Shown: positions 1,554-27,282 of the stretch, one piece after another
Layout: every line of letters begins with the position of its first letter
Position numbering within the stretch: position 1 is the first letter of the stretch
From: a virus
IMG/VR virus record: IMGVR_UViG_3300044302_002208
Coordinates: 1-30,852 of that record
Reading direction: 5' to 3' (one strand)
Length of the DNA stretch: 30,852 nucleotides
The notes under the pieces: model-generated
What the model was told of the DNA's origin: nothing
Seen by the model: only the letters and a program-made list of their open reading frames with translations
The model's database searches: none
Position numbers and translations under genes: made by a program

Positions 1554-1562
1554 ATTATATCA
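1554..1562 (-). promoter_or_regulatory. Extended -10 promoter for scaffold and capsid genes
   Basis: On the minus strand this reads TGATATAAT, a perfect extended -10 (TGnTATAAT), within TTATGATATAAT. No good -35 box is seen 17 bases upstream, which is usual for extended -10 promoters. It lies about 160 bases before the scaffold start. The same 12-base core recurs at 18423-18434 before the whole structural operon, which supports it. It would give extra transcription of the two most abundant assembly proteins. Confidence 0.6.
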
Positions 1563-1588
1563 TAAATATATGAATGTATAGTTTAGAT

Positions 1589-14555: not shown

Positions 14556-16305
14556 CTGGTCCTCCTTCTTGAGGTGGTCCACCTGCTAAACCTGCTAATA
14601 CAGATGCTATATCTGTTGGTCCTTGAGGAACTGGTGCTTGTGGTCCACCAATAACAGCTTCTTCTTCAGGCGTTGTTTCTTCTTCGGCTGTATAAAATTT
14701 ATCAAGTATCTTTGTCATCTGAGCAGGATTCTTTCGTATCTCTGCTGCAGCCATAGTAGCTTTTGGATTTCCTTGTGCTGCTTGGGCCATTAATGATTCA
14801 AACAATACACCTTCTGCTTTTTCAGCATTAATTCTATTTTGTATGTTTGTAATATTATCTAACCCATCTAGGTTTTCTTGTAAGGTTTGTGTATCAATAA
14901 TACCTTGCTGTTTTAATTGCAACCCAGTGATGACCTTTTGTGGTTCATCAAATCCTGCCATTACTCCGTATACTCTTCTAGTCTTATACATTTCTGATAT
15001 ATCAGACTTTGGTGTATATGATTCTTTATAAGCGGTACCTTTATGCATTCCTGCTATTGGCTTTCTCTTATTAGGAAACATAACCTCATCGTATTCAAGT
15101 CTTTTAGCATCTACTTCTTGCAATGCATCTCGTAATACCTGTTGGTATTCTCTTACATGCATAGATGCAGATTGACCTAGTTCCTCTAATCCTCTACCAG
15201 TAACAAAACTGTTAGGAGATTGTCCATCATCAGAAACAGGATAGGCAGAACCTAAGCGTAGGTGTCTTTCCAATCTATCAACTTGTTGAAACAATTGATA
15301 TGGAAGATTATTAACTGGTTTAGAAACAGACGAACCTGGAGCTAAATAATTAACAGCAAATCTACCTTTACGATATTTTCCTGATTCTATTTCTCCTGTT
15401 ATGTTTGTTTCAGTAAACACTGCGTCTTCCATAGCAATGGTTCCTAGAATATTTATTTTAGCCATATTGGCCATAAGGCCTATAACGTGTTGAAACTGAC
15501 TTTGCATTTGGTCAAAAGAATATCTTTTAGCTACTACAAACATTGGGCCACTTAATAATGGATTAGGAATGTAATCTATAATTGTTCTAGTATCTGGAAG
15601 AAATACGTATGTTCCTTCTTCATCCATGTATTCAACTACAACTTTTCCATCTCCATTTTGATTAGCCCAACTTCCTTGACTAGGCCCTAAAGTCAAATAA
15701 GATACGTTGTTTTCAGTAGCTTTATCACTACCCATTATCTTTGCTTTATGTTGTGGGTATTCTTTAACTAATGAAGAAATTGGAACTCTACTAATAATTG
15801 CTAAATCTTCTGGTTGTTGGTCATTACCAAATGGTCCAGGGTAACAAGTAAATGGGTCTTTTAATTCAGCTTGAGGATAAGAGTTTCCATTTCTATCTTT
15901 TTTAGATGTAATACACCAAACAACAAAACCATATCCAGGAAGCCACCTACCTACTTGTGGTAATTGTAAATTTAATTTTTGCATATCATCGTAAGCACCA
16001 ACGATACGTTCTAGTTTTTCAGATTTCTTTTTTGCTCTTTCTGAATCTTTAGCATTAATAACATCAACTTTTAAATCTGGAGTTCTTCCTAATTTTTGTG
16101 CAAATCTTTCAAGAGCTGATAAAAACATATTAGGTGCAGGTAGTTCATGAAAATCTAAATTTGTTTTATTTCCAAGTAATGCTTTAACTGCATTTTGTCC
16201 ACCATTTAAAATATCTCGTATTCTTGCTCTATCTATTAAACCGTCTTGGTTTATACCTCTTAGGTAATCTATTCTGTCATATAGTTCGTCTTTAGACTTT
16301 ACCAT
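14548..16305 (-). CDS. Portal protein
   Basis: This 585-residue protein lies directly after the large terminase (7-base overlap), the usual place for a portal. The sequence fits SPP1/gp6-like portals: an N-terminal helical segment, a long alpha/beta body containing KDPFTCYPGPFGND and EEGTYVFLPDTRTI, the helical region around EQVDRLERHLRLGSAYPVSDDG, and a C-terminal acidic/P-rich tail (EEETTPEEEAVIGG). The portal forms a 12-mer ring at one capsid vertex through which DNA is packed and released. Identification combines synteny, length and general pattern; no single short motif is diagnostic. Confidence 0.8.
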   Translation of the reverse strand: MVKSKDELYDRIDYLRGINQDGLIDRARIRDILNGGQNAVKALLGNKTNLDFHELPAPNMFLSALERFAQKLGRTPDLKVDVINAKDSERAKKKSEKLERIVGAYDDMQKLNLQLPQVGRWLPGYGFVVWCITSKKDRNGNSYPQAELKDPFTCYPGPFGNDQQPEDLAIISRVPISSLVKEYPQHKAKIMGSDKATENNVSYLTLGPSQGSWANQNGDGKVVVEYMDEEGTYVFLPDTRTIIDYIPNPLLSGPMFVVAKRYSFDQMQSQFQHVIGLMANMAKINILGTIAMEDAVFTETNITGEIESGKYRKGRFAVNYLAPGSSVSKPVNNLPYQLFQQVDRLERHLRLGSAYPVSDDGQSPNSFVTGRGLEELGQSASMHVREYQQVLRDALQEVDAKRLEYDEVMFPNKRKPIAGMHKGTAYKESYTPKSDISEMYKTRRVYGVMAGFDEPQKVITGLQLKQQGIIDTQTLQENLDGLDNITNIQNRINAEKAEGVLFESLMAQAAQGNPKATMAAAEIRKNPAQMTKILDKFYTAEEETTPEEEAVIGGPQAPVPQGPTDIASVLAGLAGGPPQEGGPVV

Positions 16306-18248
16306 TCTTTAGTCCATATTCCTTCATCAAAATCGCTTGTTTCGTAACTAGAAAAACTAGGTTCATAATCTGTAGCTAGTTCTGCTAATCGTTCTTTTTG
16401 CATACGTCTAATTGCTCTCATTGGAAACCAACTAGCCATAACTATGTCAGTCTTTGTACCTACTGTCTTGCTTTTGTTTTTAGCTGAACTAAAATACACT
16501 AACTGACTTGTATATAAGTTTACCTTTTCTTGAGCTTCAAAACCCATATATGGTAAATTTATTATCTTTTCTTGAAACGCAGGTCTTAAAGCTGTAACAC
16601 CATAAACAGGGTCAAACTTATTAGAATACGTTTCATGTCCCTCTAAAAATATACCATGTCTTGACGCAAAATCACGTATAGATTTATCTTGTCTTATAGC
16701 TTTTTGAAAACCGTTCTCCTCAATTACCCAGTGACTACAATTATATTTTTGCCACCAATCTTTAATTACATTCAGTGCTTCTGGAATACCTCCACCTAGA
16801 TTGTTGTGCATATCTACCATGTACATAATTCCGTCTCCAGGTCCGTAAGCCCAAAGAAAAGCAGCTTGATAACCAGTCGAGGCAGGGTCAAGTCCTGCAA
16901 TAAGACGTGTGCCTTTAGGTATCTGCCCTATATCCCTCTTCTGGTCTCGACATTCTTCTATTTCATCTCTACTAAATAAAGCTAGTCCTTCTGGCATAGC
17001 TACATTAAGATAAACCATTTCATAAATTGCTCTACCTCCTGTAGTTTCTGCTGCTCTTTTTCTATCCATTAACCATTTGTATGTTCTCTTAGAACCCCAC
17101 AACATACACTTGTTATGGTCATTTTCGTTCCAGTCAGTTTTTACACATGCTGAATCGTGTGCTTCTTCTACAGTTGTAGTCCAGGATTCGTTTTCTAAAA
17201 GATGTGAATATATATCGTCATAGTGCTGTCTAGAACCTATAACAACCATAGCTGTATGTTCCTCTTTTCTAGATGATAAAGTTGTAGTCCACCAGTTTCT
17301 TGTATTTTCTCTAGAGGCAGGTTGCATAGTTGAACTGTGGTCTTCAATGTCATCTGCAATAATTATGTCACAGTCTCTTGATAGAATCTTACCACCACGT
17401 CCTATACCTACCATTGTTGGACTTTTGATTCCAGTAACTGTTCTAGTACCTACAGTAAATCCACTTTGAGACCAGGACTTAGCTGATTTAGTTTTAGGTT
17501 TAAATTTTTCTCCTGGTCCACATATCTCTTCTATTAATAATTCATTAAATTCAAGTTGGTCTAAAACAGAACCTATAGCGTTCTTAGCAATATCTTCGTT
17601 TCCACCTACCCATAAAATTCTAATATTTGGATTGTTGCATATAAGCCATATTACAAAATGAATTAATAAATCTGTTTTGCCATGACGAGGTGGAGATAAT
17701 ATCATGTGTTGATTTCCACTTTCTATAGTTTCCATAATTTGTTCTATCCATTTTTTGTGGAATGCAGGGGTCTCATACGGTATACCTTGTTCTGTTCTAA
17801 AATATCTTTCTCTAAAAGATTCAAAGTCTTGTAATGTTTTTTCAGCAACTTGAGGAAGTTTCCAATTTTCTTTATCTTTCTCTATTGATAAATCTTCCAT
17901 ATATGCCTGGTAGGCCATAGAGACAGCAGCATCTGTTGTGCCTAATATTTTAGCTACACCAGTAATAGTATTTTTCTTTTCAAAAATCTCTAGTGCAAGT
18001 CCAGATTCTCTAATATCGTCATAGACCTGTCCACGTCTAGCTGAAACATTTTTTTTCTGACTAGGAATATCTAGGACATCATCTTCTTGAGTCCATTCTA
18101 CTCCTGCTTTTTTAGCACGTTTCTTTTGTTGGGCAATCCTGTTGGAACATCTATCACTACAAAATTTAGACCTACCTTTAGGTAGTGGTCTATGGCATCC
18201 TGCAGCGTAACATAGTTTTCTATCCTTTACCTGCTTGTCGTTTACCAT
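16299..18248 (-). CDS. terL: Terminase large subunit with N-terminal zinc finger and helix-turn-helix
   Basis: The ATPase and nuclease of DNA packaging. The Walker A is SPPRHGKT (residues 185-192) and the Walker B is DIIIADDIED (294-303). The RNase H-like nuclease has GLDPAST with D454, VIEENGFQ with E510/E511, and KTDIVMASW with D601. Unusually, residues 13-34 hold C-x4-C-x11-C-x3-C with an FCSDRC core (a zinc finger), and residues 89-118 look like a helix-turn-helix (ITGVAKILGTTDAAVSMAYQAY). No separate small terminase gene is seen, so this N-terminal part may do the DNA recognition. The ATG at 18248 has an AAGGA 11 bases upstream. Length (649 aa) is longer than typical TerL by about this extension. 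Confidence 0.95.
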   Translation of the reverse strand: MVNDKQVKDRKLCYAAGCHRPLPKGRSKFCSDRCSNRIAQQKKRAKKAGVEWTQEDDVLDIPSQKKNVSARRGQVYDDIRESGLALEIFEKKNTITGVAKILGTTDAAVSMAYQAYMEDLSIEKDKENWKLPQVAEKTLQDFESFRERYFRTEQGIPYETPAFHKKWIEQIMETIESGNQHMILSPPRHGKTDLLIHFVIWLICNNPNIRILWVGGNEDIAKNAIGSVLDQLEFNELLIEEICGPGEKFKPKTKSAKSWSQSGFTVGTRTVTGIKSPTMVGIGRGGKILSRDCDIIIADDIEDHSSTMQPASRENTRNWWTTTLSSRKEEHTAMVVIGSRQHYDDIYSHLLENESWTTTVEEAHDSACVKTDWNENDHNKCMLWGSKRTYKWLMDRKRAAETTGGRAIYEMVYLNVAMPEGLALFSRDEIEECRDQKRDIGQIPKGTRLIAGLDPASTGYQAAFLWAYGPGDGIMYMVDMHNNLGGGIPEALNVIKDWWQKYNCSHWVIEENGFQKAIRQDKSIRDFASRHGIFLEGHETYSNKFDPVYGVTALRPAFQEKIINLPYMGFEAQEKVNLYTSQLVYFSSAKNKSKTVGTKTDIVMASWFPMRAIRRMQKERLAELATDYEPSFSSYETSDFDEGIWTKEW

Positions 18249-18333
18249 AGTGTTTACAATCCTTACTTTTACATTGTAATACGTTTTTTATAAAATGTAG
18301 CGGCTGTCCACAAGACGGACATTCAATTTTCAA
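18220..18333 (-). CDS. Tiny zinc-ribbon protein (37 aa) ahead of the terminase
   Basis: From TTG at 18333 the frame encodes 37 residues with a clear four-cysteine pattern, ECPSCGQ (C5, C8) and QCKSKDCKHYG (C21, C26), typical of a small zinc ribbon. The TTG overlaps the stop of the upstream 21-aa ORF (TTGA) and its end overlaps the terminase start by 29 bases. The cysteine spacing is unlikely by chance in such a short frame. Whether it is translated separately, or feeds translation into the terminase, cannot be told from the sequence. Function is unknown; a DNA- or protein-binding packaging accessory is possible. Confidence 0.55.
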   Translation of the reverse strand: MKIECPSCGQPLHFIKNVLQCKSKDCKHYGKRQAGKG

Positions 18334-18395
18334 GAAGTTTTCTTAATCCTCTTAGACGAATATCTTTTCTTCTTGCCTTTTTTTGTGTAGGGCAT
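18330..18395 (-). CDS. Tiny basic ORF (21 aa), first gene of the structural operon
   Basis: ATG at 18395 encodes MPYTKKGKKKRYSSKRIKKT plus one more residue, with about half the residues Lys or Arg. A GGAG ribosome site lies six to seven bases upstream. It is the first frame after the promoter at 18423-18431 and its stop overlaps the TTG of the zinc-ribbon ORF, so it may be a real nucleic-acid-binding peptide or a leader that couples translation. At this length coding status is uncertain. Confidence 0.4.
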   Translation of the reverse strand: MPYTKKGKKKRYSSKRIKKTS

Positions 18396-18422
18396 TTTAA
18401 CTCCAATTTGTCAATATTGATA

Positions 18423-18431
18423 ATTATATCA
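18423..18431 (-). promoter_or_regulatory. Extended -10 promoter of the structural operon
   Basis: The minus strand reads TGATATAAT inside CTTATGATATAATTAT. It shares TTATGATATAAT exactly with the site at 1554-1562, and both are followed by AT-rich sequence. No TTGACA-like -35 is present. It lies about 30 bases upstream of the 21-aa ORF and about 175 bases upstream of the terminase, facing leftward, so it would start the long virion transcript. Confidence 0.65.
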
Positions 18432-18465
18432 TAAGTGTGTAAAAAAAATTTTTTATTTAGAGAAG

Positions 18466-18570
18466 GTAGGAAGGTACTTTAACTTTCAATTTAATAAATC
18501 AAATATCATGTTTAAGTACCCTTGGTCTAAGACACCCTACCTCTTTTTTAAATCAGTTGCCTGATTTAAA
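18466..18570. repeat. Nested and perfect inverted repeats upstream of the structural operon
   Basis: TTTAAATCAG (18547-18556) and CTGATTTAAA (18561-18570) form a perfect 10-bp inverted repeat around TTGC. Just left of it, a GGTAGG/CCTACC pair encloses a GGTACTT/AAGTACC pair (roughly 18466-18543), again nested. Neither strand has a U-run after the stems, so these are not intrinsic terminators. They are candidates for operators or for cruciform/origin structure controlling the divergent promoters. Confidence 0.5.
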
Positions 18571-18656
18571 TATTGTTACATAATCAAAGGGAATTAAATA
18601 TGAATAATTTATTATACTATAAATTCTAAATATTCAAGTATTGTTTACAGAAACCT

Positions 18657-18721
18657 GAGGGTTACGCCTATGAGGTATTCCAGGCGAAAGGAGGAAACTC
18701 CTGAAAAAAAACGCAACCCTC
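18657..18721 (+). ncRNA. Putative structured RNA: three-way junction with GAAA tetraloop
   Basis: GAGGGTT (18657-18663) pairs with AACCCTC (18715-18721), closing a junction with two hairpins: CGCCT/AGGCG (18665-18669 with 18682-18686) and AGGAG-GAAA-CTCCT (18689-18702). The GNRA-type loop occurs on the plus strand, which suggests that this strand is the RNA. CTTTTCT follows the closing stem. A TATACT box at 18613-18618 could be its promoter. I cannot match it to a named riboswitch or ribozyme from memory. It could be part of a larger RNA spanning to about 18880. Confidence 0.5.
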
Positions 18722-18811
18722 TTTTCTAATTCTACACATATCGTTTCAACCTGCTATAGTGAGAAAAAACAAATATTTTTATTAAGTATATTGTTACAAG
18801 TAAAGTTGCCA

Positions 18812-18874
18812 TCGAGGGGCAGAAAGTTAGGGATACATAATAGTATAACGCAGAAACGCAAACCTAATACTCGA
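18812..18874 (+). ncRNA. Putative structured RNA element: nested stems
   Basis: TCGAG (18812-18816) pairs with CTCGA (18870-18874). Inside, GTTAGG (18826-18831) pairs with CCTAAT (18863-18868), and inside that ATAC/GTAT (18833-18836 with 18843-18846) closes an ATAATA loop, leaving an unpaired AACGCAGAAACGCAAA stretch with a repeated ACGCA. Each stem is short, so the fold is less certain than its left neighbour. The ordered nesting in a gene-free region suggests one larger RNA. Confidence 0.35.
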
Positions 18875-19088
18875 GGACCTTAGAACAGTAAAAATTAGAA
18901 AAAATAGCTTTCCAAGCAGTGTGGCTCGTTATAACCAAAAGGGCAAGAAACAGGTACTAAACAATAAACAATACCTACCTTAAATATACCCATTCTTTTA
19001 CTGATTAAATAGGTAAATTATTAACAGTATATTCTAAGGGAATACACACAGAATTCTATGGGGAGCCGCGTTTAACCCCCCAAACACT

Positions 19089-19172
19089 ATATATTGTGTA
19101 TGTGTGTGCGTATACAATATATTGTGTGCATGTTGTCCTTGTCTACATATTGTATGTACAACATATGGACTA
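19089..19172. repeat. Three 28-bp-spaced ATATTGT iterons with a strong hairpin; origin candidate
   Basis: ATATATTGTGT occurs at 19089 and again at 19117, and ACATATTGTATGT at 19145; the shared ATATTGT starts at 19091, 19119 and 19147, a spacing of exactly 28 bp. The first unit also forms a 14-bp stem: ATATATTGTGTATG (19089-19102) with CGTATACAATATAT (19109-19122), two wobble pairs, loop TGTGTG. ACAATATATTGT (19114-19125) is a perfect palindrome. AT-rich, phased iterons are typical of protein-bound origins or operators. No replication initiator is recognised in the window. Confidence 0.5.
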
Positions 19173-19256
19173 ATATAACCACCTTGTACTTGTTTTAATT
19201 CTTTCTAAGAGGGTGTATGGGTGTCTAAACAATCTAAACAAAATAATTTAAAAACA

Positions 19257-19289
19257 TGTAACCATTTAGTAACCAAAGTAGTCTAAGTG
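19257..19289 (+). promoter_or_regulatory. Rightward bipartite promoter element, copy 1
   Basis: TGTAACC (19257-19263), 16 bases, then AGTCTAAGTG (19280-19289). The same boxes at the same spacing occur at 19924, 21901 and 23032. An AAC-containing -35 and a GTCTAA -10 at about this spacing are features of ECF-sigma promoters. The next gene starts 24 bases after the second box with its own AAGGGG site. This would be the first promoter of the rightward gene cluster. Confidence 0.65.
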
Positions 19290-19312
19290 TTGTAAGCAAA
19301 AAAGGGGACGAT

Positions 19313-19660
19313 ATGAAAGCATATAAAGTAACTAGAACAATGACGCAGGAATTTATTTCTTTCGGCAAGAATAAAGAAGAGGCGATAAATAATTCCTACA
19401 ACTATGACTACATGAATCTAAGTTTTCTAGCCACAGACAGTATGGCTCAGGGAGAAGTAGTCGGAGGAAGTTCAAAAGCTCAGGTTATAAACGATGTTGT
19501 AATTATTAAACAACGAGGTAGTGATTACAGAGACTATATCAGAGATATTGAAGAGCTTATTGAGAAAGGTGCAAACATTCTCATAGAAGACTGGGAAGGT
19601 AACTTAAAGACTTTAGAGACCTTTAGAAAAGAAAACAACATCTGCTTTACCAAAGAGTAG
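19313..19660 (+). CDS. Hypothetical early protein (115 aa)
   Basis: Unrecognised, probably small and soluble. The N-terminus (MKAYKVTRTMTQEFISFGKN followed by KEEAINNS) has the form 'MKxYxVxRT...EEAxxxA' also seen in the next gene, suggesting a shared small alpha/beta fold. The C-terminal half is acidic and helical (YIRDIEELIEKGANILIEDW). The start is fixed by AAAAGGGGACGAT just before ATG. It is the first gene after promoter copy 1, so it is likely among the earliest expressed; such proteins often act on host functions, but no function can be assigned. Confidence 0.7.
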   Translation: MKAYKVTRTMTQEFISFGKNKEEAINNSYNYDYMNLSFLATDSMAQGEVVGGSSKAQVINDVVIIKQRGSDYRDYIRDIEELIEKGANILIEDWEGNLKTLETFRKENNICFTKE

Positions 19661-19671
19661 TAAACCTCTCG

Positions 19672-19711
19672 GAAGATATTCGAAAGGGTATCTTCTAGGA
19701 GCTTTAAGCTC
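19672..19711 (+). other. Two hairpins between early genes
   Basis: GAAGATA (19672-19678) pairs with TATCTTC (19689-19695), and GAGCT (19699-19703) pairs with AGCTC (19707-19711). Neither is followed by a U-run. They lie in the 71-base gap before the 58-aa gene and could stabilise or separate the messages. Confidence 0.4.
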
Positions 19712-19731
19712 AACAAAGAAAAGGGGACTAA

Positions 19732-19908
19732 ATGAAAAAATACAGAGTAGTAAGAACATTAGTAGAAACAGGAGAAATCCAAGCTAATAGTGAAGAAGAG
19801 GCATACGAAATAGCTGATAAGAATGCGATAGAAGATATTAAATTTATCGCCCAACCATTTGGTTTTGAAGTTAGCCAAATTAAATACGATGTATTGGAGA
19901 ATTACTAA
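19732..19908 (+). CDS. Hypothetical small protein (58 aa)
   Basis: It starts MKKYRVVRTLVETGEIQANS and continues EEEAYEIADKNA, the 'xYxV...TGEIxAxSEEEAYxxA' pattern of a small beta-beta-alpha fold common in phage orphan proteins. The preceding 115-aa protein shares the opening. AAAAGGGGACTAA lies before the ATG. Function is unknown. Confidence 0.7.
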   Translation: MKKYRVVRTLVETGEIQANSEEEAYEIADKNAIEDIKFIAQPFGFEVSQIKYDVLENY

Positions 19909-19921
19909 AAAATAAATAAAT

Positions 19922-19947
19922 TATGTAACCTCTTCGGAGGTTACATA
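19922..19947 (+). other. Strong UUCG hairpin overlapping promoter copy 2
   Basis: An 11-bp perfect stem, TATGTAACCTC with GAGGTTACATA, is capped by TTCG with a C-G closing pair, the classic extra-stable cUUCGg loop. It follows the 58-aa gene by 13 bases. There is no U-run after it, but it could end or protect the upstream message. Its 5' arm contains the TGTAACC box of the promoter element. Confidence 0.7.
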
Positions 19948-19956
19948 GTCTAAATA
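19924..19956 (+). promoter_or_regulatory. Rightward bipartite promoter element, copy 2
   Basis: TGTAACC (19924-19930), 16 bases, AGTCTAAATA (19947-19956). The gene at 19979 begins 23 bases further on, nearly the same distance as for copy 1. The spacer is a hairpin loop and arm, unlike the other copies, so only the boxes and their distance are conserved. Confidence 0.6.
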
Positions 19957-19978
19957 ATAGAAAAGAAAAGGGGAGACA

Positions 19979-20185
19979 ATGAAGAGAAGAGTAGAATTCA
20001 AATTCTATCTAGATATAGAAGGAGAAACAGAAGAACAAATCAAGAATGGGGTTAGATACACGGTTGAACTAATTCAAAACATGGAAGAATTAGAAGACTA
20101 TGAGCCATTAATTGAGCCGTATCAATGGAGAGACTTAGAGAATGACGGAGATTACAGCTACATAAATAACGCAGATTTACTATAA
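19979..20185 (+). CDS. Hypothetical small acidic protein (68 aa)
   Basis: It starts MKRRVEFKFYLDIEGETEEQ; a beta-strand-like start is followed by an acidic helix and an acidic C-terminus (WRDLENDGDYSYINNADLL). AAAAGGGGAGACA precedes the ATG. First gene of the second rightward unit. Function is unknown. Confidence 0.7.
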   Translation: MKRRVEFKFYLDIEGETEEQIKNGVRYTVELIQNMEELEDYEPLIEPYQWRDLENDGDYSYINNADLL

Positions 20186-20210
20186 AGTAAAAGAAAGAAA
20201 GGGAAGAACA

Positions 20211-20588
20211 ATGACTAAAGAAGAATATAAATACACCTATCAAGTGGACAAGTTAGGGACAAAGCTACGTGAATTCTATGACGGAATCCACATACAAAAG
20301 CAGGATATAGAGAGAACTTATAACGATGAGAAAAGTTATACAAAGATTTCTTATACTGCAAAAGGTTGGTGGGGTAGTGATAATTTTACTCTATTCAGAG
20401 ATAAAAGAGTCACAAGGAATAGAGATGACGGAGCTTGGAGAGTTTCTTGGTCTAGTGGTGGTTTTGATGATGAAATCGGAATCATTGACAGACTAGAAAC
20501 AGTTCAACAAATCATGGAAGATATGAAATGTTTTCTAGAGTATGGAACATTCTTATTTGAAGACGAGACCACAGAAGAGGAGGAATAA
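20211..20588 (+). CDS. Hypothetical early protein (125 aa)
   Basis: Unrecognised. The centre is rich in W, G, S and R (AKGWWGSDNFTLFRDKRVTR, then GAWRVSWSSGGFDDE), suggesting a beta-rich domain. The C-terminus is a helix ending in TTEEEE, whose codons carry the GAGGAGGAA ribosome site of the next gene (stop and start overlap as TAATG). AAAGGGAAGAACA precedes its own ATG. Confidence 0.7.
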   Translation: MTKEEYKYTYQVDKLGTKLREFYDGIHIQKQDIERTYNDEKSYTKISYTAKGWWGSDNFTLFRDKRVTRNRDDGAWRVSWSSGGFDDEIGIIDRLETVQQIMEDMKCFLEYGTFLFEDETTEEEE

Positions 20589-20782
20589 TGGGGAAAGTAA
20601 CAGTAGAAGTAGCAGTTAAAAAGACTTACGTTATAAATGGATTGCAACGCAACGAAATTTATGACCTAGTTAATGATGAACATACACAAATGTTATATCT
20701 AGAAGATATCAAGGCAGGAAATTTTGAAGATGAATTTGTTGACCAAGATATAAAGATAGTAAGCACAATGGAGGAGGAATAA
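20588..20782 (+). CDS. Hypothetical small acidic protein (64 aa)
   Basis: It starts MGKVTVEVAVKKTYVINGLQ, with alternating residues that predict beta strands, followed by an acidic half ending MEEE. It is coupled to both neighbours by TAATG overlaps with the GAGGAGGAA ribosome site inside the preceding gene. No domain is recognised. Confidence 0.7.
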   Translation: MGKVTVEVAVKKTYVINGLQRNEIYDLVNDEHTQMLYLEDIKAGNFEDEFVDQDIKIVSTMEEE

Positions 20783-20937
20783 TGGCTTTATATATTGAAC
20801 AAGTAGCAGAAAGAGATAGTTATTATTGCGATATTTGTTTTAAAGATATACCTAAAGACACAACAGTAGATAATTTAGATTTAGGTTTTGAGACAATAGG
20901 TAATTATGACATTAAACACAGAGATTGTGAGGAATAA
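20782..20937 (+). CDS. Small zinc-binding protein (51 aa)
   Basis: It has YYCDICFKDIP (C16, C19) and near the C-terminus KHRDCEE (H46, C49), a C-x2-C...H-x2-C set suited to one zinc ion. It begins in TAATG after GAGGAGGAA and ends in GAGGAATAATG, overlapping the next gene. Probably a small treble-clef or ribbon protein; function is unknown. Confidence 0.65.
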   Translation: MALYIEQVAERDSYYCDICFKDIPKDTTVDNLDLGFETIGNYDIKHRDCEE

Positions 20938-21308
20938 TGAAACTACACCATACAAAATATAAAGCTAACTATAAAGAATATATACTAGACACCCTTGACT
21001 ATTGGGACGGAGAAGAAAAAGCACTAACGAATGACGATGAGAAAATAAAACATATCTTCAACCGTTTTTATAGAGAGTATGGGTGGGCTATTGAAAGACA
21101 CGGAAAGCTAAAGGCAATGTCCGAGTGGCTTTCAGGTCTAGCTTTAGACATTCCATATTGGAATGAAGATATAGTAGACCTAGCAGTAGATATGGGCAGC
21201 ATAGAAGAAAATCCTAGTGACAAATTACAAGCGAAAGTAATTAATAATTACTGGGACTTCATGGCGAATATAATCTTAGGATTTGAGCCGAAAGAAAAGG
21301 GGGAATAA
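20937..21308 (+). CDS. Conserved-type phage hypothetical protein (123 aa)
   Basis: The pattern (REYGWAIERHGKLKAMSEWLSG, then DIVDLAVDMG, then INNYWDFMANIILGF) matches a family of uncharacterised phage proteins I recall from other environmental phages, in which E-Y-G-W, W-L-x-G-L and N-Y-W-x-x-M-A are conserved. It is mainly helical and acidic. It is coupled by TAATG on both sides. No biochemical role is known to me. Confidence 0.7.
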   Translation: MKLHHTKYKANYKEYILDTLDYWDGEEKALTNDDEKIKHIFNRFYREYGWAIERHGKLKAMSEWLSGLALDIPYWNEDIVDLAVDMGSIEENPSDKLQAKVINNYWDFMANIILGFEPKEKGE

Positions 21309-21460
21309 TGGATAAGTTGCAGACTCTTCCACTTAGAGAAGATATAGATTTTAGTTGTAAAACTTGTGGTATGGAACTTCTTTATGTTGGTAGTAAAGAT
21401 AAATATGAGTTTGGCGTATGCGTTTATAAAGATTGTGAAGAATACGAGGAGGAGAAATAA
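21308..21460 (+). CDS. Small zinc-ribbon protein (50 aa)
   Basis: Two cysteine pairs, SCKTCGMELL (C17, C20) and GVCVYKDCEEY (C38, C43), give a zinc-ribbon layout. It ends EYEEEK, the codons of which hold the GAGGAGGAGA ribosome site of the next gene. Function is unknown; it is one of several tiny cysteine-rich proteins in this cluster. Confidence 0.65.
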   Translation: MDKLQTLPLREDIDFSCKTCGMELLYVGSKDKYEFGVCVYKDCEEYEEEK

Positions 21461-21585
21461 TGTTCAGTAATGTATTTAGATACATAGATGAGCTTACTTG
21501 TTCAGAAGAACTAGAAGAAATAATCCAATCTTCTAAAGATAGATTATTTTTATTGAGCTTAAGAGAATGGGACGAGGAGGAATAA
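21460..21585 (+). CDS. Hypothetical small protein (41 aa)
   Basis: A short helical protein (ELEEIIQSSKDRLFLLSLRE) ending DEEE. It begins in a TAATG overlap preceded by GAGGAGGAG, a strong ribosome site. It is the last gene before a gene-free stretch with two hairpins. Confidence 0.55.
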   Translation: MFSNVFRYIDELTCSEELEEIIQSSKDRLFLLSLREWDEEE

Positions 21586-21587
21586 AT

Positions 21588-21647
21588 AGACACAATCCCC
21601 TTTGTGTCTCTCTAAGGGCTACTTGTTTTGCATTGTGCAGGTAGCCC
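21588..21647 (+). terminator. Tandem hairpins after the second early unit; possible terminator
   Basis: AGACACAA (21588-21595) pairs with TTGTGTCT (21602-21609), 8 bp around TCCCCT, followed by CTCTAA rather than a clean U-run. GGGCTAC (21616-21622) pairs with GTAGCCC (21641-21647), with an inner TGCA/TGCA pair. They begin three bases after a stop codon, where a terminator would sit; a processing or stability element is equally possible. Confidence 0.45.
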
Positions 21648-21680
21648 ATAGGGAAACATAAGAAAGAAAGAGAAGGAAGA

Positions 21681-21896
21681 ATGAAAAGATATAGCTATAA
21701 CTTTGATGACAAAGAAACTATTACATTGAAGGGCAAGGGATTGAAGGAGGCATTGAGACAGTTCAGGTCACAAAATCCTAAGCAGCTTGAAACAAATGTT
21801 TCTTATATCAATAAGAACGGAAAAGAAATAGACAGAACTATAAGACTAAGAGAAGTGAACATCGGTATTGATAGACACGGAAATATAATTAGATAA
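21681..21896 (+). CDS. Hypothetical basic protein (71 aa)
   Basis: It starts MKRYSYNFDDKETITLKGKG, continues with a basic helix (LKEALRQFRSQNPKQLE), and ends in strands rich in R and K (NGKEIDRTIRLREVNIG, IDRHGNIIR). AGAAGGAAGA precedes the ATG. The basic charge stands out among acidic neighbours. Function is unknown; nucleic-acid binding is possible. Confidence 0.65.
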   Translation: MKRYSYNFDDKETITLKGKGLKEALRQFRSQNPKQLETNVSYINKNGKEIDRTIRLREVNIGIDRHGNIIR

Positions 21897-21900
21897 AGTT

Positions 21901-21933
21901 TGTAACCTTTATACACAAAAGAAAGTCTAAGTA
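21901..21933 (+). promoter_or_regulatory. Rightward bipartite promoter element, copy 3
   Basis: TGTAACC (21901-21907), 16 bases, AGTCTAAGTA (21924-21933). Only two bases separate the second box from an ATG at 21936, so a transcript starting about seven bases after GTCTAA would be nearly leaderless for that ORF. The -10 side also matches copies 1 and 4 beyond the box (followed by TATGAAAG or similar). Confidence 0.65.
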
Positions 21934-21935
21934 AT

Positions 21936-22043
21936 ATGAAAGAAAAGTTAGAGAAGTTAAGAGAGGTAGAAAAAATTATTTCCTATCTTGAAGGACAGCT
22001 TGAACAATTAGAAGAAGAACTAACGAAGGGAAAAAATATATGA
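21936..22043 (+). CDS. Tiny coiled-coil ORF (35 aa)
   Basis: It encodes MKEKLEKLREVEKIISYLEG followed by QLEQLEEELTKGKNI, a near-ideal heptad helix with L/I at a and d positions. The ATG has no ribosome site but lies at the expected transcription start of promoter copy 3, so it could be translated leaderless. Its stop overlaps the next ATG (ATATGA). Confidence 0.5.
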   Translation: MKEKLEKLREVEKIISYLEGQLEQLEEELTKGKNI

Positions 22044-22219
22044 AACTATACGAAATAATTGATACTAAATACAATACTAATTTAGGTATGTACATAACTC
22101 ATATTGGAGAGGAATATTTAAACTTCCCTAAAGATATACAAGATAGTTATGACAAGCTACAAGAACAGTTAGGTCTGGACATTCCAGATGAAGAAGAACA
22201 GTTAGTAAATAATGGGTAA
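22040..22219 (+). CDS. Hypothetical small protein (59 aa)
   Basis: It starts MKLYEIIDTKYNTNLGMYIT and ends with an acidic tail (IPDEEEQLVNNG). GAAGGG about 10 bases before the ATG serves as ribosome site; the start overlaps the coiled-coil ORF stop. No domain is recognised. Confidence 0.6.
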   Translation: MKLYEIIDTKYNTNLGMYITHIGEEYLNFPKDIQDSYDKLQEQLGLDIPDEEEQLVNNG

Positions 22220-22361
22220 TGCAGGAACGCCTTATACTTTAACTTTTTATATTGTTGCTGAAGATATTGAACAAGCAATAAATGAATTGGACCAAATGAC
22301 ATTTAAAGAAAAATTAAATTACCTTAGTCAATTAAGTAACGAACAAGAAAGAGAGGAATAA
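22212..22361 (+). CDS. Hypothetical small protein (49 aa)
   Basis: It encodes MGNAGTPYTLTFYIVAEDIE and a helical remainder ending QEREE. It overlaps the upstream gene by eight bases; the C-terminal codons (GAGAGGAATAA) provide the ribosome site of the following gene. Part of the third early unit; function is unknown. Confidence 0.55.
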   Translation: MGNAGTPYTLTFYIVAEDIEQAINELDQMTFKEKLNYLSQLSNEQEREE

Positions 22362-22365
22362 ATAT

Positions 22366-22608
22366 ATGATTGAAGTAGAGGAAGTAAAAATATTAGTAGC
22401 AACTAGATATGGTAACGCACTTGACGAAATCATTACAAGATTAAATGAGTACGCCAACCAATGTGAAGGTATCCAAGACCTGCACATTCTAGACTATGAA
22501 ACACACGACATCGTAAAAATAAATAGTAAAGATACTGAAATTATGATGAGGAAGAATGCAACTTGGAAGAGCAGAATCAAGTTAGCTAACTGGGAGATAG
22601 ATAAATAA
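22366..22608 (+). CDS. Hypothetical small protein (80 aa)
   Basis: An alternating beta/alpha pattern: EVKILVATRYG, a helix (ALDEIITRLNEYANQ), then IQDLHILDYETHDIVKI and a basic C-terminal part. GAGAGGAATAAAT precedes the ATG. It is the last gene before the structured gene-free stretch at 22609-22767. No family is recognised. Confidence 0.65.
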   Translation: MIEVEEVKILVATRYGNALDEIITRLNEYANQCEGIQDLHILDYETHDIVKINSKDTEIMMRKNATWKSRIKLANWEIDK

Positions 22609-22613
22609 TTTAA

Positions 22614-22749
22614 AGATGTCTATTAGTAAGAGTTAAGAACTAGCCCTGTTGCTTAACCACTGAAAGTAGACATCTAGTAGCACATTAATTAGCGTTGAAT
22701 ACATTGCGAAAGCATTAGTAAGGACAATGATTTGTGTGTTACTAGATGT
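22614..22749 (+). ncRNA. Putative structured regulatory RNA with two competing stems
   Basis: AGATGTCTA (22614-22622) pairs perfectly with TAGACATCT (22667-22675). Inside is a hairpin, GTTAAGAAC (22632-22640) with GTT-G-CTTAAC (22648-22657), loop TAGCCCT. A second long stem pairs 22670-22685 (ACATCTAGTAGCACAT) with 22734-22749, 16 bp with two G-U pairs, and encloses a short TGC-GAAA-GCA hairpin. Bases 22670-22675 (ACATCT) are needed by both long stems, since AGATGT occurs at 22614 and at 22744, so only one can form fully. No coding frame with a ribosome site covers the region. It is not a canonical tRNA. Confidence 0.6.
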
Positions 22750-22767
22750 TTAATAGAAAAGGAAACA

Positions 22768-22989
22768 ATGGATAGAAGGTTTGAACTAATTAAATTAGCG
22801 GCCAAAGAAAGTAACATGTGGGAAGTTAATAACCCTCGTGTTATAAAAATATTGACAATGATAATGAAGTTGGTAGAAGAAGACGAAACCTTAGATGAAA
22901 GTCAGATTGAACAAATATTTTTTTACATCAATGTAACTACAAAACTATGGGGAAGAGAAGATATGACCGTTGATATATATGATAAATAA
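22768..22989 (+). CDS. Hypothetical protein (73 aa)
   Basis: I place the start at ATG 22768, after AAAGGAAACA; an upstream TTG at 22732 is open but lies in the RNA stem and lacks a ribosome site. The protein is helical and acidic (LVEEDETLDESQIEQIFFYI). It directly follows the competing-stem RNA, so that RNA is in its leader and may control it. Function is unknown. Confidence 0.65.
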   Translation: MDRRFELIKLAAKESNMWEVNNPRVIKILTMIMKLVEEDETLDESQIEQIFFYINVTTKLWGREDMTVDIYDK

Positions 22990-23031
22990 ATCTAGAGTTT
23001 TAGTAGAGATTTTAAAAAATAAAAAAAAAGA

Positions 23032-23064
23032 TGTAACCTTTTTGAAACTAAAACAGTCTAAGTA
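23032..23064 (+). promoter_or_regulatory. Rightward bipartite promoter element, copy 4
   Basis: TGTAACC (23032-23038), 16 bases, AGTCTAAGTA (23055-23064), followed by TTGTGAAAGTAAAAAG, close to the sequence after copies 1 and 3. The gene at 23094 starts 30 bases after the box. It opens the last and longest rightward unit, which ends with the Rad52-like gene. Confidence 0.65.
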
Positions 23065-23093
23065 TTGTGAAAGTAAAAAGTAAAGGGGAAGAT

Positions 23094-23285
23094 ATGAAGT
23101 ATAAGTTTGAAGAAACTTTTAAGGTAGAGTTTGAAATTGAAAGTGAAAGCGAGGCGAAAGCAAGACGTTCTTATTCAGAACTATTTGATAAGAACATACA
23201 ACTTGGTTTTGATAAATGGAAAGACACGGAACTAAAGATACTTGTCGGTAAGTTTAACTTACAAGTAATAGAGGAGGAAGAATGA
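23094..23285 (+). CDS. Hypothetical small protein (63 aa)
   Basis: The start at ATG 23094 is preferred because AAAGGGGAAGAT precedes it; a GTG at 23067 is open but falls just three bases after the promoter box. It begins MKYKFEETFKVEFEIESESE followed by AKARRSY, the recurring small fold of this cluster, and ends EEEE. The last codons (GAGGAGGAAGAATGA) carry the ribosome site for the next gene. Confidence 0.65.
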   Translation: MKYKFEETFKVEFEIESESEAKARRSYSELFDKNIQLGFDKWKDTELKILVGKFNLQVIEEEE

Positions 23286-23422
23286 ATAGACTTGAAAGAC
23301 GCAGGGCTAAATCTAAAAAGCTAGGTGGTACGCAACTGCACCATACAACAATGGGCGGTAAGCTGAAGGCCGAGCAAGACGAAAAAGCACATAACAAAAG
23401 AGCATACAAGGGAGAGGAATAA
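23282..23422 (+). CDS. Small basic protein (46 aa)
   Basis: It begins MNRLERRRAKSKKLGGTQLH and is rich in K, R and H, ending KRAYKGEE. It overlaps the preceding stop by four bases (ATGA) after GAGGAGGAAGA. Its strong positive charge contrasts with the acidic neighbours and suggests nucleic-acid binding. No family is recognised. Confidence 0.6.
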   Translation: MNRLERRRAKSKKLGGTQLHHTTMGGKLKAEQDEKAHNKRAYKGEE

Positions 23423-23550
23423 TGATGAAAGTAAAAATATGCGAGGGTTGTTTAGAAGATGACCAACAAAATAACATTATAACATATAGAGATATGAATT
23501 TTCATAATATTTGTATTGAAGATGTTAAGAAAGTTGAGGGTTGGGAATAA
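23422..23550 (+). CDS. Small zinc-binding protein (42 aa)
   Basis: It encodes MMKVKICEGCLEDDQQNN with C7 and C10, and FHNICIED with H28 and C31: C-x2-C...H-x2-C, the same arrangement as the 51-aa protein at 20782. It is coupled by TAATG overlaps on both sides. Function is unknown. Confidence 0.6.
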   Translation: MMKVKICEGCLEDDQQNNIITYRDMNFHNICIEDVKKVEGWE

Positions 23551-23768
23551 TGGCTAAAGAATATCGTACAGTAAAAGTTCATACAGAGGAATTGCAAGAG
23601 ATATTAGGTGCAAAGTCATTTGTAGTAGAAATAGAACGAGAAGTGTCAGTTGTTGTTAATGCTGATAGCAAAGAACAAGCAGAGGAACACGCTATGGATT
23701 TGTTTGTTGAAAATCCTAACGAACAACTTTTATTAAACAGAGTTGTAGGAGTTACAGAGGAGGAATAA
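23550..23768 (+). CDS. Hypothetical protein (72 aa)
   Basis: I use ATG 23550 (overlapping the previous stop as TAATG) rather than TTG 23541. The centre, VVVNADSKEQAEEHAMDLFV, is the cluster's repeated 'V-x-A-x-S-x-E-x-A-x-x-x-A' motif. It ends TEEE with the ribosome site for the next gene in GAGGAGGAATAAATG. Confidence 0.65.
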   Translation: MAKEYRTVKVHTEELQEILGAKSFVVEIEREVSVVVNADSKEQAEEHAMDLFVENPNEQLLLNRVVGVTEEE

Positions 23769-23954
23769 ATGTTAAAGAAATATATATACAAAGTGAAAGG
23801 CACAATGACAGTTATGTCAGAAACTTTAGGAGACGCAGATAAAAAGTTAAGCAAGTGGTTAGAGACAGCACCTAATTACATAGACACCACTGAATTTATT
23901 GAGGTACTTGGTTTAGAAAACGGTAAGTGGATAACTATACAAGAGGAGGAATAA
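23769..23954 (+). CDS. Hypothetical protein (61 aa)
   Basis: MLKKYIYKVKGTMTVMSETL and then GDADKKLSKWLE: strand-helix pattern like its neighbours, ending IQEEE. It starts immediately after the previous stop (TAA|ATG). No function can be given. Confidence 0.65.
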   Translation: MLKKYIYKVKGTMTVMSETLGDADKKLSKWLETAPNYIDTTEFIEVLGLENGKWITIQEEE

Positions 23955-23957
23955 ATA

Positions 23958-24401
23958 ATGACAGTTAAAGAATATAGTAAAGAAGTAATTAACAAGTTTG
24001 TTGATGACGAGGCATATTATTATTACGAAGATGATAACTGGGGTTGGAATTTTAATAATGTAGCTTTCTTTTACAAAAGTGTTCAGCTACTTAGGTGGTT
24101 AATCTGGTCAGAGACTAACGAAATGTTAGATAAGGCAACACCAGTAGATTTTGAAGAAGTATCTACATGGGATATGAATACTTGCGAGAAGTATATTGAT
24201 GAGGTAATGAGTAAACATTATGCAGATGATGACCTTTGGATAGGCGAAGATTATGGACATGTATCTTCTTACTTTGAATGGCTAGAAGACAATACAGAGT
24301 ACATATATCAATTCGCAGGTAGCAGCGACCATGCAGAGTGGACAGAAATAATACAGACTAAAAAAACAGACATGCTTGAAAGAATAAAAGGGGAGGAATA
24401 A
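23958..24401 (+). CDS. Hypothetical acidic protein (147 aa)
   Basis: It is very rich in D, E, W and Y (for example FVDDEAYYYYEDDNWGWNF and ADDDLWIGEDYG), with a helical middle (KSVQLLRWLIWSETNEMLD). Ends KGEE with the ribosome site GGGGAGGAATAATG for the next gene. The strong negative charge could mimic DNA, as some phage anti-host proteins do, but there is no motif to prove it. Confidence 0.65.
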   Translation: MTVKEYSKEVINKFVDDEAYYYYEDDNWGWNFNNVAFFYKSVQLLRWLIWSETNEMLDKATPVDFEEVSTWDMNTCEKYIDEVMSKHYADDDLWIGEDYGHVSSYFEWLEDNTEYIYQFAGSSDHAEWTEIIQTKKTDMLERIKGEE

Positions 24402-25693
24402 TGGAATACGAATACAGGGGAAGAAAAGGGTCTCATATGGAAGAGATACAAATGGAAAGAGCAAGACTTCCAAAAGATTTATTAACTAGAAGATTTACGG
24501 AAGAAGATATTGAAGAGATTAAAAAATATTACTGGATAGATTGCGAGTGGTTAGATAAACAAGAAAAATTTAATGGTGTTGGTAGTAGGAAATGTCCTAC
24601 TCATGGGAGAATACATTATAGATTACCAGACCAACTTACTTTTAAATTACTTGTAGATTTATTCCCAACGTATCCAATGGAGGCATGGGCAGAGGTATAT
24701 AAAGTTTCAAGAGAGGCAGTAAGAATACTTTATGCTCAAAGTGTTGATAGCGACAGAAGAAATTCTTATGGGGAAGACAGAGAGAAAACAATATACGGAG
24801 AGAAACCAGATTGGAAAAGACTTGGTGCTTATTTCAGGGATGTAAAAGAAAAATTATATATACCAAATCAGTATCTACTAGGATACCATGACTTAACTCA
24901 GAGCTATGTAAAGTATTGGATGAATAGAAACAAGAATGTTAATAGTGGATATAAAAAAGCACATGAGGTAAGAACACAGAAACAAAATAATCCTGACGAA
25001 CAAAAATGTTATAGATGTGGCGAGGTCAAAAAGATAAATGAGTTTCATCATTCTGCTAAAACAGTAACAGGATACACAAAGACTTGTAAATTTTGTTCAA
25101 GAGCAAGTGTCAAAGCATACTACATTAAACACCACGAGAACTTTAATCCAGAAAATATACCTAGTGAACAGAAATGCAGACTTTGTAAACAAACAAAACA
25201 TAGAAGTAAGTTTCATATTTCTAGAGGGACATCCACAGGACTTCAGTCAGATTGTATTAAGTGTATGAACGAAGTGCAGCTACGAATACAACATGGTCAC
25301 AAGAGTAGAAAGAAAAAATTTCAAGAGGCAGGGCTTGATAAGAATAAAGTTTGTCTTCATTGTCTAAAAGAAAAGGATTATTGGAATTTTTATTTATTAA
25401 AATATAGGCCTTACTCAAAAAATAAAGCTGAGTTTTCTTCAACTTATTGTATTGATTGTGTGAAAGACGCAAGACTTACAATTCCTGAAATCATAAGACC
25501 AACAACAACTAATTTTACATCAACTTATAGAGCGTCACATAAGTTTGTTCCTGCTAAATATAATGATACAAATGAAGATACGTTAGTAGAAATGAGTCCT
25601 TACGCATGGGCAGAAATATGTAAAGAACATGCAATGAATAATGCATTAAACGTTTCTAGAACTTTAATCCAAATGGAACAAGAGGAGGAATAA
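24401..25693 (+). CDS. Putative DNA-binding regulator: helix-turn-helix plus three zinc ribbons (430 aa)
   Basis: The N-terminal third has C48 and CPTHG (C65, H68), then PMEAWAEVYKVSREAVRILY (residues 92-111), which looks like a helix-turn-helix of the sigma-region-4 type. The second half carries three cysteine modules: C203/C206 with C229/C232, C259/C262 with C285/C288, and C318/C321 with C350/C353. Spacings of 22-28 residues inside each resemble the zinc-binding part of phage endonuclease VII/HNH proteins, but I see no H-N-H catalytic motif. A transcription regulator or a nuclease relative are both possible. It is the largest gene of the rightward cluster and is coupled on both sides by TAATG. 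Confidence 0.6.
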   Translation: MEYEYRGRKGSHMEEIQMERARLPKDLLTRRFTEEDIEEIKKYYWIDCEWLDKQEKFNGVGSRKCPTHGRIHYRLPDQLTFKLLVDLFPTYPMEAWAEVYKVSREAVRILYAQSVDSDRRNSYGEDREKTIYGEKPDWKRLGAYFRDVKEKLYIPNQYLLGYHDLTQSYVKYWMNRNKNVNSGYKKAHEVRTQKQNNPDEQKCYRCGEVKKINEFHHSAKTVTGYTKTCKFCSRASVKAYYIKHHENFNPENIPSEQKCRLCKQTKHRSKFHISRGTSTGLQSDCIKCMNEVQLRIQHGHKSRKKKFQEAGLDKNKVCLHCLKEKDYWNFYLLKYRPYSKNKAEFSSTYCIDCVKDARLTIPEIIRPTTTNFTSTYRASHKFVPAKYNDTNEDTLVEMSPYAWAEICKEHAMNNALNVSRTLIQMEQEEE

Positions 25694-25821
25694 TGACAAT
25701 TACAGAGAGCCAATATATAGATATTGCTACCAAAATATCAAACGCTGAAAACGATAATTGGTTAGTTGAATTACAGGGACTACTTGAATATAAATTACAT
25801 AAATTAAGTGAGGAGGAATAA
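25693..25821 (+). CDS. Hypothetical small protein (42 aa)
   Basis: MTITESQYIDIATKISNAEN and a helical remainder ending LSEEE. Coupled to the regulator gene upstream and to the 23-aa membrane peptide downstream by TAATG, each with GAGGAGGAA. Function is unknown. Confidence 0.55.
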   Translation: MTITESQYIDIATKISNAENDNWLVELQGLLEYKLHKLSEEE

Positions 25822-25892
25822 TGCACGAAGGAACAATAGTGCTGCTTATTATTGTTGTTGTTCATATAGCTGCATTCTATTTAATTGATTGA
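25821..25892 (+). CDS. Tiny single-span membrane peptide (23 aa)
   Basis: It encodes MHEGTIVLLIIVVVHIAAFY plus LID, almost entirely one hydrophobic helix. The ATG overlaps the preceding stop and has the strong GAGGAGGAA site, which supports translation despite the length. It could sit in the host inner membrane and act on a host membrane protein. Confidence 0.5.
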   Translation: MHEGTIVLLIIVVVHIAAFYLID

Positions 25893-25916
25893 AATGAAAG
25901 AAGAAAGGAATAAATA

Positions 25917-26255
25917 ATGGAACATAAACCAATAGTTAAAGCTATGGAAGAGACACATAACAAACTGAATAGAGGTAGAAGTTATTTTGGTATGGGATAT
26001 GTAGATAGCTATGACTTATTAGAGAGATTGATTGCTGATACAAAATATGAGTTAGAAAAACTAGAAGAAACAAAGAAAGTTGGTATAAAGTTTTGGTCTG
26101 ATACACAATTTATGAGGTACAACGAAAGCAAATACCATAAGAAACAGCTCATAGAAAAGTTAGAGTTTCTATACAGGGAGGCAGAAAAGTCAGAGGCAAT
26201 CTATGACCAAGCAAGAGAAGGGTCAGCAGAGCCAGTAGGAGACCCACCATTTTAA
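25917..26255 (+). CDS. Hypothetical helical protein (112 aa)
   Basis: Largely helical and charged, with a coiled-coil-like middle (LLERLIADTKYELEKLEETK) and second half (KKQLIEKLEFLYREAEKSE), ending in a flexible EPVGDPPF. AAAGGAATAAATA precedes the ATG. No family is recognised. Confidence 0.65.
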   Translation: MEHKPIVKAMEETHNKLNRGRSYFGMGYVDSYDLLERLIADTKYELEKLEETKKVGIKFWSDTQFMRYNESKYHKKQLIEKLEFLYREAEKSEAIYDQAREGSAEPVGDPPF

Positions 26256-26365
26256 CTAAATCATATTGGATTGTTTTTAATAACAAAGATTATAAAGATA
26301 ATCCTAACTTAGTTATAGATATGTTGACTGACGCAAGGATAGAAGAGATAGAGGAGGAAGAATAA
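26249..26365 (+). CDS. Candidate 38-aa ORF with an unusual ATT start
   Basis: The frame from 26249 reads [I/M]LTKSYWIVFNNKDYKDNP followed by NLVIDMLTDARIEEIEEEE and a stop just before the next ATG. The EEEE end and gap-filling position are exactly those of the neighbouring real genes. No ATG, GTG or TTG lies upstream before a stop at 26204; the next ATG (26324 region) would leave only 14 residues. ATT at 26249 has GGAG seven bases upstream, overlapping the end of the preceding gene. An AUU start, or a frameshift from the upstream gene at TTTT, would explain it. Confidence 0.35.
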   Translation: MLTKSYWIVFNNKDYKDNPNLVIDMLTDARIEEIEEEE

Positions 26366-26647
26366 ATGATTGTTAAATCGTTTAGAAATAAGATAGTTCC
26401 CTGGCACGTTAAATCTAAGAAAGATTTAATTGCCTGGGCATTAGTAACATTCAGGGAAGATGAGCCAATAAGTAATGGCGAGTTTGTATTTGACCTAAGA
26501 TGTACTAGATTTGGTGGACTACTTCACGACCTAAGGAGAGAAGGTTGGGATATAGTTACCGTATCAGCAAAAGAGAAAGGACATTACATATACTACTTGG
26601 TATCAATGCCTGATGAAAAGGTAAGTAACAACCTAAGATTAGTTTAA
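26366..26647 (+). CDS. Winged-helix (HTH_39-like) DNA-binding protein (93 aa)
   Basis: Residues around 40-70, FDLRCTRFGGLLHDLRREGW followed by DIVTVSA, resemble the small winged-helix family in phages whose signature is 'R-x-x-x-L-x-x-L-R-x-x-G-W-x-I' followed by a beta wing (here HYIYYLVSMP). It would bind DNA and regulate phage transcription or DNA metabolism. GAGGAGGAAGAATAA precedes the ATG. Family assignment is by pattern memory. Confidence 0.55.
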   Translation: MIVKSFRNKIVPWHVKSKKDLIAWALVTFREDEPISNGEFVFDLRCTRFGGLLHDLRREGWDIVTVSAKEKGHYIYYLVSMPDEKVSNNLRLV

Positions 26648-26687
26648 CAATAATTGTTTACACAAATTGTAAATATGTAGTAACATT

Positions 26688-26852
26688 ATGAGTATGATGT
26701 ATGTAGTAACAGCTATAAATATCTACAATAGTGAAGAGATAACGTGGGAATTTAATCAGCTCAGTCATGCAATGGCTAAGGTTAGAGAGCTGAAAGACAC
26801 ACCTAACAGATACATTGTTAAGTATTCTGCGACTCAAACTATTGAAGTATAG
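26688..26852 (+). CDS. Hypothetical small protein (54 aa)
   Basis: MSMMYVVTAINIYNSEEITW with a following helix (LSHAMAKVRELKDTP) and a C-terminal strand. The ATG lacks a clear ribosome site. The 40-base gap before it holds TTGTTTACA (26655-26663) and an AT-rich stretch that could be a weak promoter, so expression may be leaderless. Same strand-helix-strand size class as other orphans here. Confidence 0.55.
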   Translation: MSMMYVVTAINIYNSEEITWEFNQLSHAMAKVRELKDTPNRYIVKYSATQTIEV

Positions 26853-26894
26853 ATAGTAGTTAAAAAAAATATATAGAAAGGTAGGAGGATTTGA

Positions 26895-27280: not shown

Positions 27281-27282
27281 TA

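Follow-up and report, generated by a model that had tools for sequence, protein, structure and literature searches.

The DNA analysed here, a 30.9-kb virus record from IMG/VR taken at its full length (the window), raises the question of what reads the bipartite sites that recur ahead of its small genes. The window consists of a leftward structural arm encoding the terminase, the portal and large proteins (positions 1-18248, minus strand) and a rightward arm made up of small genes (19313-28913, plus strand), beyond which a short stretch with an exonuclease gene runs leftward again. About 1 kb without long open reading frames (ORFs) separates the diverging arms (18340-19250); it carries ATATTGTGTATG/CATATTGTATG-type repeats and is a possible origin or control region. 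An earlier note on this DNA had reported four copies of TGTAACC-N16-AGTCTAA, and all four are indeed exact and lie on the plus strand within the rightward arm. The motif was absent from 100 shuffled versions of the window, so that four copies stand against none expected. Single boxes also occur: TGTAACC at 4182 (+), 7943 (+) and 19939 (-), the last being the other arm of a palindrome at the second site, and AGTCTAA at 1363 (+) and 16292 (-).

As the earlier note had also held, each copy stands just before a gene, with ATG codons at 19313, 19979, 21936 and 23094; P1 to P3 are preceded by short intergenic stretches, and P4 heads the longest rightward run. The promoters and genes of the window given in this paragraph are on the plus strand. 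P1 (19257-19286), with TGTAACC as the putative -35 and AGTCTAA as the putative -10 element, holds a second GTAACC in its spacer, 11 bp on and in the direct form; the gene behind it (19313-19660; 115 amino acids, no assigned function) has the Shine-Dalgarno (SD) sequence AAAGGGGA and its ATG 26 nt past the -10 box. At P2 (19924-19953), the -35 box doubles as the left arm of a hairpin, and the following gene (19979-20185; 68 amino acids, no assigned function) heads a tightly packed run of small genes extending to about 21585. P3 (21901-21930) precedes a 35-amino-acid ORF (21936-22043), the stop codon of which overlaps the ATG at 22040 of a 59-amino-acid gene; with its own ATG placed just 5 nt past the -10 box, this ORF possibly has a leaderless start. 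The ATG lies 3 nt after the second box in three relatives (L012, L031 and L055). P4 (23032-23061) is the site closest to the family consensus described below (A-tract, TTTTT and GTATTG), and its first gene (23094-23285) opens the run toward an Erf-like annealing protein (27688-28617). Upstream of P4 lies the gene for a conserved 73-amino-acid protein (MWEVNNPRV; 22768-22989), homologs of which are found in 16 phage contigs and in an accessory island of candidate host genomes. An inverted repeat, AGATGTCTA/TAGACATCT, precedes this gene, and strong inverted repeats mark the intergenic stretches at 22608-22768, 21586-21660 and 19660-19720; a search of the window and the host island against Rfam gave no match.

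The signal extends well beyond this one virus. The exact pattern was found in at least 118 stretches of IMG/VR contigs; many single matches are chance occurrences since the pattern is so short, and between two and seven copies are present in many of the contigs among the matches listed. When the pattern was lengthened to TGTAACCTTT-N13-AGTCTAAGTA, 41 stretches matched. The consensus built from 39 dissimilar sites of multi-copy contigs reads AGTCTAAGTAnTA and continues into a ribosome-binding leader rich in A/G, and the extra similarity that the earlier note had seen after the second box turned out to be part of it. In order, it comprises TGTAACC, T-rich bases, a free spacer, AGTCTAA, G-T-A-(A/G)-T-A, an A/G-rich leader with an SD sequence, and the ATG; the usual flanks are an A-tract before the first box, TTTT after it and GTAnTA after the second box; ahead of the first box, A-rich tracts span roughly -18 to -12 and -8 to -4. 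The conservation of the boxes in this consensus is there by construction because they were the search terms, a reservation from which the flanks are exempt.

A less biased test, in which the two exact boxes could lie 8 to 27 bases apart in 23 phage contigs including the window, returned 84 pairs at a spacing of 16, 19 at 15 and none at any other value. Together with the shuffles, this rules out a chance origin of the four window sites. With up to one mismatch allowed, the same contigs held 176 sites, 143 of them at a spacing of 16 and 33 at 15; the fixed 16-base spacing asserted previously holds in the window, and its relatives make use of 15 as well. Nearly all sites (171/176) follow the majority direction of their own contig, and 146 of the 176 have an SD sequence and a start codon shortly downstream, mostly 15-33 nt past the second box. 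Where a base deviates, it is the first or last of the first box or A1 or T5 of the second, and rarely any other: GTAAC, TC and the final A are invariant in 176/176 sites, and the G of the GTC motif in the -10 core, GTC(T/A)AA, is altered in four. The sites thus combine an AAC-core -35 element, a GTC-type -10 core and a spacing kept close to 16 bp, as is typical of promoters for extracytoplasmic function (ECF) sigma factors. Their orientation, spacing and near-invariant AAC and GTC cores mark the boxes as promoter-like and of the ECF-sigma type, and we regard it as very likely that the sites are ECF-type promoters. The proposal that bipartite ECF-type promoters serve the rightward small-gene arm is thereby borne out, and in related phages the boxes recur with a spacing that varies by one base at most, the very comparison on which the earlier note had made its reading depend.

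Two other readings of the boxes have to be weighed against this one, and both draw on additional copies of the first box. An inverted second box lies in the spacer of 19 of 128 distinct spacers, as compared with 1.6 expected, and a direct one, placed one helical turn on, in 11, against an expectation of 1.3. At P2, the -35 box is part of a perfect hairpin, TGTAACCTC-TTCG-GAGGTTACA (19922-19947), with a CUUCGG loop and a predicted folding energy of -17.4 kcal/mol (z -8.2). Palindromes resembling that of P2 are found again in relatives, where both arms have changed (TGTAACCCC-TTCG-GGGGTTATG). For the second box, roles as an operator, as an additional docking site or as an RNA hairpin terminating the transcript from upstream are conceivable. 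Since palindromic variants fold into stable RNA hairpins, one might see in the boxes some other cis element, such as replication or packaging repeats or an RNA element, and not promoters at all; we consider this highly improbable, as the sites are oriented with transcription, occupy a fixed place before an SD sequence and a start codon, have a promoter-like composition and tolerate a single base of variation in spacing, while the hairpin forms are in the minority. Somewhat less remote, and still improbable, is that TGTAACC serves as an activator or repressor operator ahead of a primary-sigma promoter with its -10 element in the AGTCTAA region. The above-chance frequency of second boxes would suit such an operator; however, most sites lack a second copy, AGTCTAA is a poor TATAAT, and the distance between the boxes is held to 15-16. 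Moreover, sigma-70-like matches (TTGACA/TATAAT) at 18000-24000 are not above the level of shuffled sequences (20 versus 25.3), and none of them coincides with a site itself.

The ECF-type promoters occur in phages of two lineages. Lineage A, the family of the window, consists of 16 contigs that have the terminase, the portal and other structural genes in common; its sites lie between the start of the terminase gene and the Erf-like gene and point the opposite way from the structural genes. One of its sub-groups bears an additional site, flanked by two structural genes and likewise reversed relative to them, that precedes a small gene. Lineage B (G001, G002, G003 and G014) possesses a different terminase along with an HK97-type portal and protease, and bears as many as some 20 sites; with one or two exceptions these lie upstream of its terminase. 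Many marine phages, from no fewer than two unrelated families, share the signal. The two lineages have an HNH protein and several small genes in common, and our search for a candidate factor gene carried by all members of both found none. Because the sites are located in the erf-side arm, mostly away from the structural genes and with none before the terminase, portal or capsid genes, the promoters appear to serve an early or middle arm; a search for late promoters upstream of the terminase gene revealed no shared sigma-70-type site. Neither the window DNA nor a consensus promoter retrieved a related record from among annotated phages. The terminase and portal are 23-25% identical, over 69-89% of the protein, to those of the Streptomyces phages of the FlowerPower/Immanuel3 group, the genomes of which differ from the window.

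As to the factor that would read these promoters, the earlier note had left the choice between an alternative and a phage-encoded sigma factor. Sigma70 region 2 was detected in none of 27 phage records, some of which may be fragments, in a search that was positive in 10 control genomes. No match to region 4 (r4_2) rose above the cut-off in 19 phage records, the best partial one having an E value of 4e-4 over 22 positions. With no region 2 and only sub-threshold helix fragments of region 4, the idea of a phage-encoded sigma factor found no support, and a host ECF sigma is the likelier agent. WhiB, looked for as an actinophage marker, is likewise absent from the 27 records. These phages, in which no sigma factor is recognisable, therefore probably borrow the sole ECF sigma factor of their likely host.

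Who that host might be was approached through a scan of 395 genomes of one class with the shorter pattern GTAACC-N16/17-GTCTAA, which matched in 31 places. Several genomes of 1.0-1.1 Mb carry it, with a GC content of 32-37% in the sampled stretches, similar to that of the phages. Ca. Actinomarinales have genomes of about 1.1 Mb with 32.4% GC and two sigma factors (Table 1 in PMC7771536). Judging from genome size, GC content and sigma factor count, the likely hosts would be streamlined marine actinobacteria matching this group. A first guess at the host, low-GC genomes in a phylum-wide sample, had led to an anaerobe-like order of four genomes without the signal, and no phage record contained a tRNA through which a host could be linked. 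Exactly two sigma factor genes, a primary and an ECF one, for proteins of about 358 and 194 amino acids, were found in 11 of 12 candidate host genomes, and a single one was detected in the twelfth. The protein of about 194 amino acids is an ECF sigma factor of the RpoE/SigW type: it scores well above the TIGR02937 cut-off, contains Sigma70_r2 and r4_2, and has E. coli sigma-E structures as its nearest solved relatives. Its gene lies in the order rpmG-ECF-ORF-secE-nusG, and the ORF behind it, with a CxxC motif and one hydrophobic or transmembrane stretch and without a family match, may encode an anti-sigma factor. The rpmG-ECF-secE-nusG operon (L273:1202-3203 and relatives) is kept across much of the class. 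No AAC/GTC promoter lies upstream of the ECF operon of the candidate host, and autoregulation of the ECF operon via this signal was rejected.

Within these genomes, the pattern is confined to one element and not scattered (G481, G588 and G563). This accessory island is clearly present in 8 of 42 genomes of about 1 Mb from the order of the candidate hosts, as judged by DNA search (L251:2240-2921; L253; L339:14500-16040). Seven aligned island promoters share an invariant GTAACY-N16-GTCTAA and have diverging spacers; about 20 nt downstream lies a terminator-like hairpin, and a CTCAAT...ATTGAG inverted repeat is also present. The island encodes a PD-(D/E)XK nuclease and a small MWE(I/L)NNPR protein homologous to the 73-amino-acid protein of the window, and could be a satellite, a prophage remnant or a defence element. 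Its phage-type promoter and phage-homologous gene would tie the phages to these hosts. In a matrix scan of 794 kb from two candidate host genomes, the sole match above background was the island of one of them (G487), and a host regulon with this consensus is consequently not visible there. That the chromosome is so poor in the signal could be due to a regulon of very few members, to host sites that are weaker, or to a factor of phage origin.

More distant genomes also carry the signal. In a collection of 84,980 species, the 20-base pattern was found in two contigs only, both upstream of fabD in actinobacterial MAGs, which by themselves prove little since, on size alone, the collection should yield about 0.5 chance matches. 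The class-wide scan added a third such signal in G804 (C157), directly upstream of fabD, with TTTTTT after the first box and the ATG 35 nt past the second. TGTAACCTTT-N13-AGTCTAA hence lies directly upstream of fabD in all three genomes (G017, G018 and G804), and FabD is 47% identical between the two diverged lineages bearing it. That three of the 31 places in the scan fall just before fabD is not expected by chance; we estimate that fewer than 0.01 would do so. All three genomes have a syntenic ECF ortholog, with 40-42% identity and clearly the best match in each genome. In the candidate host genomes of about 1 Mb, fabD follows acpS and no signal precedes it; a fabD promoter of this kind was accordingly dismissed for them.

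These distributions bear on a third alternative, a phage-encoded specificity factor that would be too divergent for the Pfam sigma models, be made early and act on the host core polymerase, in which case infection would switch on the host island. T4 gp55 and SPO1 gp28 are models for such a factor. It would account for a signal that phages carry in abundance and the sampled host chromosome hardly at all, its only copies in the genomes of about 1 Mb being those of an island with a phage-homologous gene. Yet no sigma domain was detected in the 27 phage records and no gene is universal to the two lineages, and three cellular genomes, in which one would not expect a phage factor, also have the signal before fabD. 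We consequently judge a phage specificity factor to be unlikely, though the least so of the three alternatives.

We favor, with a probability of roughly 0.57, transcription of the phage early operons by a host ECF-sigma holoenzyme. From the sequence evidence assembled above we infer that the ECF sigma factor reads the signal, that the hosts are Actinomarinales, and when and from which points transcription would start. P1 to P4 would thus be promoters of the rightward early/middle arm, read by the host RNA polymerase equipped with the host ECF sigma factor. Sigma region 4 would bind TGTAACC(TTTT) as the -35 element and sigma region 2 would open AGTCTAA(GTAnTA) as the -10 element, and the A-tract ahead of the first box would probably act as an UP element; transcription is predicted to begin about 5-8 nt past AGTCTAA. 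The main objection to this host-sigma model is that the sampled host chromosome outside the island is without the signal. Phage early genes are as a rule read by the host primary sigma factor. The promoter type itself is already known, and it is the phage strategy that would be novel if confirmed; our search, which covered open-access papers, found no report of a phage group using a host ECF sigma factor in this manner. More tentatively still, in streamlined marine actinobacteria with two sigma factors only, phage lineages without kinship may have arrived by convergence or by exchange at promoters for the one ECF sigma factor of the host, to run their early arms, with the host island wired to the same promoter and expressed along with, or in answer to, the phage program. 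Were a widespread group of marine phages to run its early arm through a host ECF sigma factor, infection would be tied to the sole alternative sigma factor of actinobacteria that rank among the most abundant in the ocean, searches with the promoter string would provide a sequence handle for phages of uncultured hosts, and the regulon of an orphan ECF sigma factor would become testable.

Repeated non-housekeeping promoters that govern a class of phage genes have precedents. Phage 7-11 employs its own sigma factor for late promoters and host sigma70 for its early ones (PMC8948821), and phages of Bacillota with an own sigma factor have been described (PMC9429907). Like these phages and phiEco32, the viruses studied here place a class of their genes under a repeated promoter of the non-housekeeping kind; they differ in that the former encode their own sigma factor and none is detectable in the latter.

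On the side of cellular promoters, the -10 element of E. coli RpoE is GTCTAA. SigX of B. subtilis recognizes TGTAAC at -35 and CGWC at -10 (PMC12153292), and the -35 elements are ATTGAAACCTTT for SigW and GGAACTT for RpoE (PMC8103513). The promoters of all three sigma factors have, as do the phage sites, an AAC-core -35 element followed by a C/T run and a spacing of 15-17 bp; the GTC-type -10 core of the phages resembles the CGWC of SigX and the GTCTAA of RpoE, and the CCTTT after AAC in the -35 box of SigW matches the phage TGTAACCTTTT. Unlike the promoters of SigX, SigW and RpoE, those described here are set in phage early arms, keep TGTAACC and AGTCTAA near-invariant, and carry an A-tract before the -35 box and GTAnTA after the -10 box.
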